From: a virus
Strand: one strand, 5' to 3'
DNA length: 28,181 bases
IMG/VR virus record: IMGVR_UViG_3300044798_000223
Coordinates: 1-28,181 of that record
Shown: positions 552 through 15,053 of the stretch, piece by piece
Layout of the letters: the number at the start of each line of letters is the position of its first letter
How positions within the stretch are numbered: the stretch's first letter is position 1
Notes under the pieces: generated by a model
Database searches by the model: none
What the model was told of the DNA's origin: nothing
Seen by the model: the letters and a program-made list of their open reading frames with translations, nothing else
Made by a program: the position numbers and the translations under genes

Positions 552-1766
552 TTATAAACTATCGTCAACATCACCAACACCTTCATCATTCATCTTGCTC
601 TCAGCAATCAGAAATTCAGCTGATTTGTGCTTAAGGCAAGTCCACGTGCCGTCTTGTCGTTGGAACCAAAGAACCAATCCTTCCCGAAGAGTAGCAGCGT
701 CAAGAGTTGACTTCCCATCTGCAAAGCAGAGAAGTTCAATAACATCTACACACACAGATCCCACACTCTCTATAAGATCTACGCCGTTGTTATACCATCC
801 CTCCCAAAGAACTGTAGGCTTCTCAAGACCAAGCTCTTCGGCTCTTCTATCAACTTGCTTACGTGAGAGGTCGTAGCACTGTCCATCTGGTGTGGTAATA
901 GTAACTCGGTACAGAAGGACTTTGTAGTTTCCAACTTGAACACCATAGTCAGACAATTTCTGAATTCGAGTACCACCAGCATATCCATAGATCTCATAGT
1001 AGATCTGCTCACCTTGGTGAATGTGCGGAGCGGCCTGTTTTTCAACCAGATGACGGACTTCAGAGATGTGACCATTGATTCCATCGACTCGGCGGGTGCC
1101 ACTGATGACTCTGTACTCCTTTGCAGGACGCCAGAACTGCCACCAGCGCTTGCCTGTGCTACAGAGAAGGTTGCCTGTGCGGCCTGATGTGCCGTGAATC
1201 TTCTCCTCCAAGCGAATTGGTCCTGCAGGAATCGTATCAGATTCCCGCATCAGTTGCTTGGTATCCCAGTGACGCCAGAAGTACTCAGCCGGACAAGGTT
1301 TGGACTTGTTACCAGGAGTGCTGGGAGCACCAACCACGATGACATACTTGTGGCAGATCTCCACTCCATGGATGTGAGTAAACTCAACACCCTCAGTTAG
1401 CAAATCATAATCAATCCAGCTGAGAGAGCCAACTAAGAGTGTTTTGATCTCAGCAACATATCCGTTTGAAATTTCACCTCGAAATCGCTGAGCCGTAACT
1501 CGCCCACTCCTGCCAAAGTAGCCCTTCTTCTCAGGATCAGCATTCATCTCCTTATTGGAGTATAGATTATTGGCCTTGAGATATTGTGAGGAGAGAGCTA
1601 AATTGGAATCGAAGTATACGACCAACTGCCCATCTTCAGCATCTGCACCTACGACCACTTGAGTCCCAAGGACTGTCGCCAGCTTCAATCGGTCAGCGTT
1701 CGGATGCTTACGGACGTTGTTGAGTCGGACGATAATAGCGTTGTTGGTTTCAGATTTGGTGAGCAT
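552..1766 (-). CDS. RNA ligase with N-terminal OB-like domain (Rnl5/DraRnl-like)
   Basis: ATP-dependent RNA ligase of the nucleotidyltransferase superfamily. Residues about 8-110 form a tRNA-binding/OB-like domain (NNVRKHPNADRLKLATVLG), as in the Deinococcus-type Rnl5 family. The catalytic domain has motif I KIHGTS with Lys189 as the expected AMP-accepting lysine. It also has EIYG (258-261, motif IIIa), REGLVLW (361-367, motif IV) and KHK (379-381, motif V). I start it at the ATG at 1766 because AAGGGGA lies just upstream; a longer frame to 1817 would overlap the previous gene. Family members seal nicks with an RNA 3'-OH end. In a phage with many tRNAs, repair of cleaved tRNA is a likely job, by inference. 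Confidence 0.85.
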   Translation of the reverse strand: MLTKSETNNAIIVRLNNVRKHPNADRLKLATVLGTQVVVGADAEDGQLVVYFDSNLALSSQYLKANNLYSNKEMNADPEKKGYFGRSGRVTAQRFRGEISNGYVAEIKTLLVGSLSWIDYDLLTEGVEFTHIHGVEICHKYVIVVGAPSTPGNKSKPCPAEYFWRHWDTKQLMRESDTIPAGPIRLEEKIHGTSGRTGNLLCSTGKRWWQFWRPAKEYRVISGTRRVDGINGHISEVRHLVEKQAAPHIHQGEQIYYEIYGYAGGTRIQKLSDYGVQVGNYKVLLYRVTITTPDGQCYDLSRKQVDRRAEELGLEKPTVLWEGWYNNGVDLIESVGSVCVDVIELLCFADGKSTLDAATLREGLVLWFQRQDGTWTCLKHKSAEFLIAESKMNDEGVGDVDDSL

Positions 1767-1776
1767 TACATCCCCT

Positions 1777-1965
1777 TTAGAAGATCCAATTTGCTGGGCC
1801 TGGACTCTTAATATCATTTAGTTCCCATGGAGATAGGCCGCGAGTAAATCCTTGTATCTCCTCAATAGTTCTGAATAGGAACTTTTCAACCAAGATCTTC
1901 ACAGGAATTCCAACTACGTAGGAGATTGCAAGGTTTACATCTTCTCTACTTGGAATCTTCTTCAT
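1777..1965 (-). CDS. Small hypothetical protein
   Basis: A 62-residue protein with no recognised domain. It begins MKKIPSREDVNLAISYVVG and looks partly helical. The ribosome site GGAGGAG lies immediately before the ATG and overlaps the stop of the preceding gene (GGAGGAGTAAAATG), which argues that it is really translated. It ends 10 bases before the RNA ligase start. Confidence 0.65.
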   Translation of the reverse strand: MKKIPSREDVNLAISYVVGIPVKILVEKFLFRTIEEIQGFTRGLSPWELNDIKSPGPANWIF

Positions 1966-10912: not shown

Positions 10913-10981
10913 AGGAGGTGATGGCGGATCCACAACAGCCGGCATGGAAAGCCAACGCTCTGCCAATTAAGCTACACCTCC
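10913..10981 (-). tRNA. tRNA-Gly(UCC)-like gene with truncated T-arm
   Basis: Acceptor GGAGGTG pairs perfectly with CACCTCC. The D-arm is GCTTAATTGGCAGAGC. The anticodon arm TTGGC-TTTCCAT-GCCGG carries UCC with U33. Only 18 bases (CTGTTGTGGATCCGCCAT) lie between the anticodon stem and the acceptor, where 21-22 are expected. At best a 4-bp T-stem (GTGG/CCAT) with a 5-base loop forms, and the TTCGA loop is absent. It may be a pseudogene or a non-canonical tRNA. Its 5' end overlaps the CsrA-like stop codon. Confidence 0.6.
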
Positions 10982-12370: not shown

Positions 12371-12441
12371 GTTGACGGGTGGGATTTGAACCCGCTCTCG
12401 CAAAATCACAATCTGCTGTGCTGCCACTACACTACGGCCAC
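12371..12441 (-). tRNA. tRNA-His(GUG) with imperfect acceptor stem
   Basis: The D-arm is GTGTAGTGGCAGCAC. The anticodon arm is GCAGA-TTGTGAT-TTTGC with anticodon GUG. The T-arm is GCGGG-TTCAAAT-CCCAC with one C-A mismatch. The 5' strand GTGGCCG and 3' strand (CGTCAAC) leave two mismatches, and spacing to the T-arm is off by one. The 3' bases GTCAACTTA resemble leader elements elsewhere in the window. No CCA encoded. Confidence 0.75.
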
Positions 12442-12443
12442 AA

Positions 12444-12515
12444 AGCCGAAGGTGAGATTCGGACTCACAGTCGCTGGTTTACAGAACCAGTGCTTCACCG
12501 TTAAGCTACTTCGGC
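12444..12515 (-). tRNA. tRNA-Thr(UGU) with C33 and C55
   Basis: Perfect cloverleaf: acceptor GCCGAAG/CTTCGGC, D-arm GCTT/AAGC, anticodon stem CTGGT/ACCAG, T-stem GTGAG/CTCAC. The anticodon loop TCTGTAA gives UGU, but position 33 is C rather than U. The T-loop TCCGAAT has C at 55. Discriminator is U. The stems are intact, so it is unlikely to be simple decay. Confidence 0.85.
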
Positions 12516-12516
12516 A

Positions 12517-12600
12517 TGGCCAAGGTAGGAGTCGAACCCACACTCTCCGAAGAGAAGCGGCTTTTAAGACCGATGCGTCTGCCTGTTCCGCCACTTGGCC
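12517..12600 (-). tRNA. tRNA-Leu(UAA)
   Basis: Class II tRNA. Acceptor GGCCAAG/CTTGGCC with discriminator A. The anticodon loop CTTAAAA gives UAA. The long variable arm is CTCTTCGGAGAG. T-arm GTGGG-TTCGACT-CCTAC. Canonical. Confidence 0.92.
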
Positions 12601-12605
12601 GATAG

Positions 12606-12677
12606 TGGACCCACAACGACTCGAACGTTGATTTCACGCTTATAAGGCGTGCTCTCTGCCTATTGAGATATAGGTCC
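12606..12677 (-). tRNA. tRNA-Ile(UAU)
   Basis: Acceptor GGACCTA/TGGGTCC with discriminator A. D-stem TCTC/GAGA. Anticodon arm CACGC-CTTATAA-GCGTG with UAU, reading AUA codons directly instead of through lysidine-modified CAU. T-arm CAACG-TTCGAGT-CGTTG. Canonical. Confidence 0.92.
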
Positions 12678-12678
12678 A

Positions 12679-12758
12679 TGTTGAAGAATGACGACCGTTA
12701 TTACGACGGAGCCGCCAGTCAAGACTTCCGAAGTGATCTATATTTATCACTCTTCAAC
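12679..12758 (-). ncRNA. 80-nt tRNA-like structured RNA of unknown kind
   Basis: Fills the slot between tRNA-Ile and tRNA-Leu(UAG) with spacers of 1 and 4 bases. Its ends pair as GTTGAAGAGTGA with TCATTCTTCAAC (12 pairs, one G-U), followed by an A like a discriminator base. Inside are a possible D-like stem TGAT/ATCA and a hairpin CCGT-CGTAATA-ACGG. There is no TTCGA T-loop and no clear anticodon arm. It could be a highly diverged tRNA, a remnant, or a distinct small RNA processed with the tRNAs. Confidence 0.55.
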
Positions 12759-12762
12759 TAAA

Positions 12763-12841
12763 TGGCCAAGATAGGAGTCGAACCTATACGCTTTCGCACC
12801 AGTTTCTAAAACTGACGTGGCTGCCATTACACCACTTGGCC
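12763..12841 (-). tRNA. tRNA-Leu(UAG)
   Basis: Acceptor GGCCAAG/CTTGGCC with discriminator A. Anticodon arm TCAGT-TTTAGAA-ACTGG with UAG. Short class II variable arm GCGAAAGC. T-arm ATAGG-TTCGACT-CCTAT. Its acceptor is identical to that of tRNA-Leu(UAA). Confidence 0.92.
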
Positions 12842-14966: not shown

Positions 14967-14971
14967 TATTG

Positions 14972-15051
14972 TGGTCACGGATAGGACTTGCACCTATGTC
15001 TTCCGGTACGATCCACCGGGGTCCTAATGTAATCCCTGAACGACTCGTGCC
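14972..15051 (-). tRNA. Aberrant 80-nt tRNA-like gene, possible pseudo-tRNA
   Basis: Sits 2 bases from the initiator tRNA. Acceptor GGCACG pairs with CGTGACC only if one A bulges. A D-stem GTTC/GGAC has a 13-base loop. The anticodon stem CCGGT/ACCGG is perfect, but its loop GGATCGT has G33 and would place AUC as anticodon. T-arm ATAGG-TGCAAGT-CCTAT has G at position 55. All four arms can form, yet many invariant bases are absent, so coding identity is uncertain. Confidence 0.55.
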
Positions 15052-15053
15052 AA

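Follow-up and report, generated by a model that had tools for sequence, protein, structure and literature searches.

The stretch of DNA analyzed here (the window) comprises 28,181 nt (28.2 kb) of the IMG/VR virus record IMGVR_UViG_3300044798_000223. ARAGORN and Rfam together located nine tRNA genes between positions 10913 and 15128, every one of them on the minus strand, and a tight group within this array (12371-12841) includes an 80-nt element that is read from 12758 to 12679 on the minus strand. The element occupies a normal tRNA slot, with spacers of 4 nt (12759-12762) after tRNA-Leu(TAG) and 1 nt (12678) before tRNA-Ile(TAT). The tRNA calls and the sequence bore out the slot, coordinates, size and spacers given in an initial annotation of this DNA, from which the minus-strand orientation of the array and the element was absent. 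The features of the locus, in the order in which they are read, are:

12763..12841, minus strand, tRNA-Leu(TAG), directly 5' of the element
12679..12758, minus strand, structured RNA element, 5' end at 12758, with a structure common to the homologue at L001:4013-4090 (see below)
12747..12758, minus strand, 5' strand of the 12-bp closing stem P1, pairing with 12680-12691 (5/20,000 shuffles)
12735..12746, minus strand, J1/2, single strand, UAAAUAUAGAUC, from the comparison with the homologue
12723..12734, minus strand, 5' strand of P2 (AC, UU internal loop, CGG, bulged A at 12727, AGUC), from the RNAalifold consensus
12716..12721, minus strand, predicted pseudoknot strand 1, UGACUG in the P2 loop, complementary to 12692-12697, with an equivalent in the homologue
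12703..12713, minus strand, 3' strand of P2 (GGCU, CCG, UC internal loop, GU)
12692..12697, minus strand, predicted pseudoknot strand 2, CGGUCG, directly abutting the 3' strand of P1
12680..12691, minus strand, 3' strand of P1, partner of 12747-12758
12605..12677, minus strand, tRNA-Ile(TAT), directly 3' of the element

Several other features of the window were recorded. The tRNA at 10913-10981 (minus strand) scored 40.7 bits in Rfam with no ARAGORN call, and a PD-(D/E)XK endonuclease gene (PF11645; 12845-13252, minus strand) lies in the tRNA array, adjoining the element. An RNA ligase gene (phrog_968; 552-1817, minus strand) would be relevant if infection damages and repairs tRNAs. The slot between tRNA-Met and tRNA-Pro holds a degenerate or unorthodox tRNA-like sequence (14967-15052, minus strand; tRNA-like part 14975-15049), with an anticodon arm CCGGT-GGATCGT-ACCGG that has no U33, a T-arm ATAGG-TGCAAGT-CCTAT with G in place of U55, and an Rfam tRNA score of only 11.4 bits, under the cut-off.

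The 12-bp closing stem first described for the element was recovered; it contains one further G.U pair, extends to 13 bp with an inner U.G, and is followed by the unpaired, discriminator-like A (12679) that forms the 3' end of the element. When the 85-nt gap was dinucleotide-shuffled, 5 of 20,000 shuffles had a 13-bp closing stem near their ends. The minimum free energy (MFE) of the minus strand was -25.5 kcal/mol (z = -3.3), none of 200 shuffles being as stable, and the plus strand was weaker (z = -2.1). A coding role seems unlikely: two of the three minus-strand frames are broken by internal stops, and the third, open for about 40 codons, extends across tRNA-Ile, with no ribosome-binding site in evidence.

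An Rfam search of the whole window at the gathering threshold returned the nine tRNAs and no known family over the element. With the search opened to E<=10 over a 161-nt segment that includes the element, no tRNA or ribozyme family emerged for it, the only matches being part of the neighboring tRNA-Leu and two weak snoRNA scores (sR44 and sR9), which were dismissed as chance because they lie on the opposite strand and far under the gathering score. Covariance models of tRNA (RF00005), of the self-cleaving ribozymes in Rfam (HDV-like, twister, hammerhead and others) and of YrlA (RF02553) did not match the element at E<=10, and ARAGORN was silent over it. Neither a T-loop nor a 7-nt anticodon loop on a 5-bp stem was seen in its sequence or folds, in agreement with the earlier description.

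A homologue was found in a relative, contig IMGVR_UViG_3300031952_000030 (L001), where the tRNA array adjoins a topoisomerase-like gene that is 82% identical to the one beside the array of the window. The 88-nt gap between tRNA-Ser and tRNA-Ile(GAT) of this contig (L001:4007-4094) is closed by a 13-bp stem of its own (19/20,000 shuffles) and contains the homologue at L001:4013-4090 which, as in the window, directly precedes a tRNA-Ile, with anticodon GAT versus TAT. The covariance model R1, made from the window copy alone, had this gap as its best match beyond the window copy (E = 4.9e-4 in a search of 186 kb); an unfiltered run on 43 kb of arrays placed the gap at E = 1.1e-4 and the next match at 0.34. 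Both copies carry AUAU, UCACUUYGGA, UC, GAC, UCGUAWUA and GGUYG in the same order. The global similarity of the two cores was equalled by 34 of 20,000 shuffles; local alignment of the core was weak, with 217 of 5000 shuffles and 53 of 1412 control windows as good.

Numbering the element from 12758 as position 1, P1 is formed by 1-12/68-79, and J1/2 has two parts in common with the homologue, AUAU and the UC with which the UCACUU motif begins. The 9-bp P2 consists of 25-26/55-56, 29-31/50-52 and, after the bulged A32, 33-36/46-49. A candidate 6-bp pseudoknot (38-43/62-67; 36/20,000 shuffles) is possible in both copies, with five pairs canonical in both and the sixth, G43-C62 versus A44-U61, as a two-sided change; P2 and the pseudoknot were selected with both sequences in view. 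RNAalifold on the two copies gave one fold, exactly P1 and P2, at -25.95 against a column-shuffle mean of -2.88 (z = -11.5, 0 of 2000 column shuffles as good), from an alignment made by hand in structural register, which favors the structure; the region inside P1 alone gave z = -3.2 (23/3000). For single sequences P2 competes with alternative folds of similar energy, and the common fold is not the MFE fold of either copy (-21.3 versus a pseudoknot-free MFE of -23.8 in the window, -18.1 versus -20.4 in L001).

All 21 pairs of P1 and P2 were kept in both copies, eight to 11 of them with both bases changed. In the alignment made by R1, 41 of 41 countable cells pair, with eight two-sided changes (five in P1, three in P2); anchoring the stem ends instead raised the P1 changes to eight and the total with P2 to 11, so that the P1 count, 5 or 8, varies with the register, and the covariation is that of one comparison between two known copies. 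When the 3' partners were slid by 1-3 columns as a control, 35-64% of the cells paired. Between the window and L001, tRNAs of the same kind were 72-91% identical and the whole element 60%; judging from these sequences, the element evolves faster than the tRNAs while its pairing and loop motifs are kept, which fits a functional RNA read through its structure and a few unpaired motifs. Sequence is conserved in the loops and joints, and in P1 it changes while pairing is kept, as expected for such an RNA.

The retention of pairs through two-sided changes, together with a pseudoknot available to both copies, argues against chance, a decaying tRNA and a mobile repeat alike. An inverted repeat arisen by chance, or a small repeat that is mobile, would account for the long closing repeat, and an endonuclease gene of the PD-(D/E)XK type is at hand in the array, but stems of this kind rarely arose by chance in either phage (5/20,000 and 19/20,000), the window has no second copy, and a conserved interior between arms that diverge with compensation is the reverse of what a mobile repeat shows, making this origin most improbable. 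A highly altered or decaying tRNA is scarcely more credible: the slot, the tRNA-like size and a 12-bp P1 equal in length to acceptor plus T-stem would suit it, and a degenerate tRNA-like sequence does sit in another slot of the array (14975-15049), but the element has no tRNA match at E<=10, no T-loop and no anticodon arm, its pair-preserving changes are unlike decay, and L001 keeps this non-tRNA fold too. The initial annotation had left the choice between a new phage small RNA and a highly altered tRNA, noting that a lack of conservation in relatives would count against the element. Conservation was found, and the first option is favored over the second, because a homologue in the same place has the same fold, eight to 11 two-sided changes and a shared candidate pseudoknot, and because the element bears no tRNA signature. 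The element is thus very probably a real, structurally conserved, non-tRNA small RNA of a phage tRNA array.

To judge from the searches made, which covered relatives represented mostly by fragments, the family has two members, both from a single phage group. When the element was compared by BLASTN with phages and plasmids, nothing real came back, and a scan of the window for further copies or long complementary targets gave none above chance. The exact core pattern matched 73 stretches in viral contigs, none element-like or beside tRNAs, which were taken as chance. Motif patterns from the two-copy consensus, searched in viral contigs and a prokaryote genome collection and judged by closing stem and tRNA neighbors, yielded only the L001 copy as real, and the models R1 and R2 found no third copy in DnaB-related contigs, their arrays or T4; one genome scan with R1 missed even the L001 copy, and its empty result counts for nothing.

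The arrays of more distant relatives by DnaB (G012 and G014 at 49-50% identity, G013 at 50%) include other non-tRNA slots, in which R1 and R2 detected no homologue of the element; the RNAs of these slots did not match the window model. A different RNA is kept in G012 and G013 in the slot between tRNA-Leu(TAG) and tRNA-Tyr; in G014 it follows tRNA-Leu(TAG). Its hairpin reads AAGCU-GACG-AGCUU in two of the phages and AGACU-GACG-AGUCU in the third. This RNA is about 140-163 nt long (L168:3764-3926, minus strand; L171:1608-1746, minus strand; L170:1771-1925, plus strand) and has compensatory stem changes around the GACG loop across the three related phages. The G013 RNA and the L001 copy have a 13-nt identity, which was set aside, its pieces being in swapped order and missing from the window copy, as was a hammerhead reading, made by eye, of CUGACGA in this RNA, with no GAAA core in place.

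In G012, the slot between tRNA-Arg(ACG) and tRNA-Ala(TGC) holds an 81-nt RNA (L168:4157-4237, minus strand) with an 11-bp closing stem (MFE z = -4.2, p = 0.0005). The Arg/Ala slot of G014 (L170:1353-1418) is occupied by a tRNA-like RNA that is truncated and has a good T-arm. A possible third family of array RNAs, noticed by eye and then aligned (L169:740-845, minus strand; L170:693-799; L170:478-617), has 5' hairpin loops GAUCCC, GUAUCC and CCUUCUC complementary to GGGAUC, GGAUAC and GGGAAGG before the next tRNA, and in a related 135-kb phage contig a tmRNA gene lies among the tRNAs (L093:938-1273; Rfam 111.5 bits). The Leu/Tyr RNA and the 81-nt RNA suggest a recurrent presence of non-tRNA RNAs in the arrays of this phage group. 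A broader view, in which tRNA arrays would serve as expression and processing platforms for lineage-specific sets of diverse pseudoknotted non-tRNA RNAs, either small functional RNAs or ribozymes, is offered tentatively.

For the element itself, the reading towards which we lean is that of a pseudoknotted, stand-alone small RNA, co-transcribed with the array, excised by tRNA enzymes, stable and acting in trans. Spacers of 1-4 nt and a common orientation imply that element and tRNAs would share one transcript; a scan of the array for minus-strand intrinsic terminators found none, and promoter matches were not informative. Enzymes of tRNA maturation would then cut the element from the precursor. 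RNase P measures the acceptor/T-stem stack, which a 12-bp helix ending in G-C and followed by a 3' A resembles, so that release by tRNA enzymes would be expected: on the 5' side, RNase P would be offered a tRNA-sized terminal helix, and the 3' end of the element would be left trimmed. We infer that the element would finally accumulate and persist as a free, stable RNA acting in trans, in the simplest form by holding the conserved single-stranded motifs AUAU, UCACUU and UCGUAWUA for a protein or RNA partner.

It is less likely, though a serious alternative, that the element acts in cis as a structured spacer that is later destroyed, keeping the tRNA-Ile leader from misfolding, guiding cleavage by RNase P or RNase III, or protecting the precursor. 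It precedes tRNA-Ile in both phages, at 1 nt in the window and about 4 nt in L001, while the upstream tRNA differs (Leu versus Ser), and after each copy comes AU, then the tRNA; on the other hand, other tRNAs of the arrays are similarly spaced with no such element, and a core with P2, a bulged A and a pseudoknot exceeds what a spacer needs.

A new self-cleaving ribozyme that helps to cut the array seems unlikely, and would be proposed by analogy with theta ribozymes. The small size, the conserved unpaired joints, the position in a tRNA array and a pseudoknot between hairpin loop and joint that abuts P1 would fit such a role, and we take the P1/pseudoknot topology to recall twister, as a lead only. 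Against it, the element matches no Rfam ribozyme family even at E<=10, its pairing order differs from the nested order of HDV, no catalytic signature was identified in it, and self-cleavage would be superfluous where tRNA enzymes are present. The HDV-like theta ribozymes of gut phages are frequently tied to phage tRNA sequences, with a proposed role in the processing of tRNA 3' trailers (PMC10879173).

The model of P1, P2 and pseudoknot makes expression, processing and self-cleavage of the element directly testable. As a further structurally conserved array RNA, unrelated to rnaC and rnaD of phage T4, the element suggests, together with the conserved slot RNAs in the arrays of relatives, that the tRNA arrays of phages are a source of non-tRNA RNAs as well; these are easily overlooked because tRNA finders skip their slots.

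Among known systems, the bacterial Y RNAs (YrlA, RF02553) have an end-closed stem and are associated with tRNA-like RNA. The element resembles YrlA in the end-closed stem and has no YrlA match, and YrlA-like scores in the arrays of relatives overlapped tRNA genes under the cut-off. Theta ribozymes are, like the element with its predicted pseudoknot, small pseudoknotted RNAs tied to phage tRNAs, but they adopt nested double-pseudoknot HDV folds, whereas the element has a simple closing stem and matches no Rfam ribozyme. The nearest precedent is provided by rnaC and rnaD of phage T4 (species 1 and 2 RNAs), of unknown function (PMC3014915; PMC9697503), which was still given as unknown in 2025 (PMC12685909). 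They are annotated in the T4 record (AF158101) as small stable RNAs in the tRNA cluster, in the same orientation and with spacers of 6 and 1 nt, and are thus, like the element, non-tRNA small RNAs in tRNA slots; the T4 cluster also has the homing endonuclease gene SegB in a place comparable to that of the PD-(D/E)XK gene here. At 139 and 119 nt they are longer than the 80-nt element, rnaC has a T-arm (CCGGGTTCGAATCCCGG) that the element lacks, and the model of the element found no match at their positions in T4, so that they are not homologous. The element represents a new family, of a kind already known from rnaC and rnaD.
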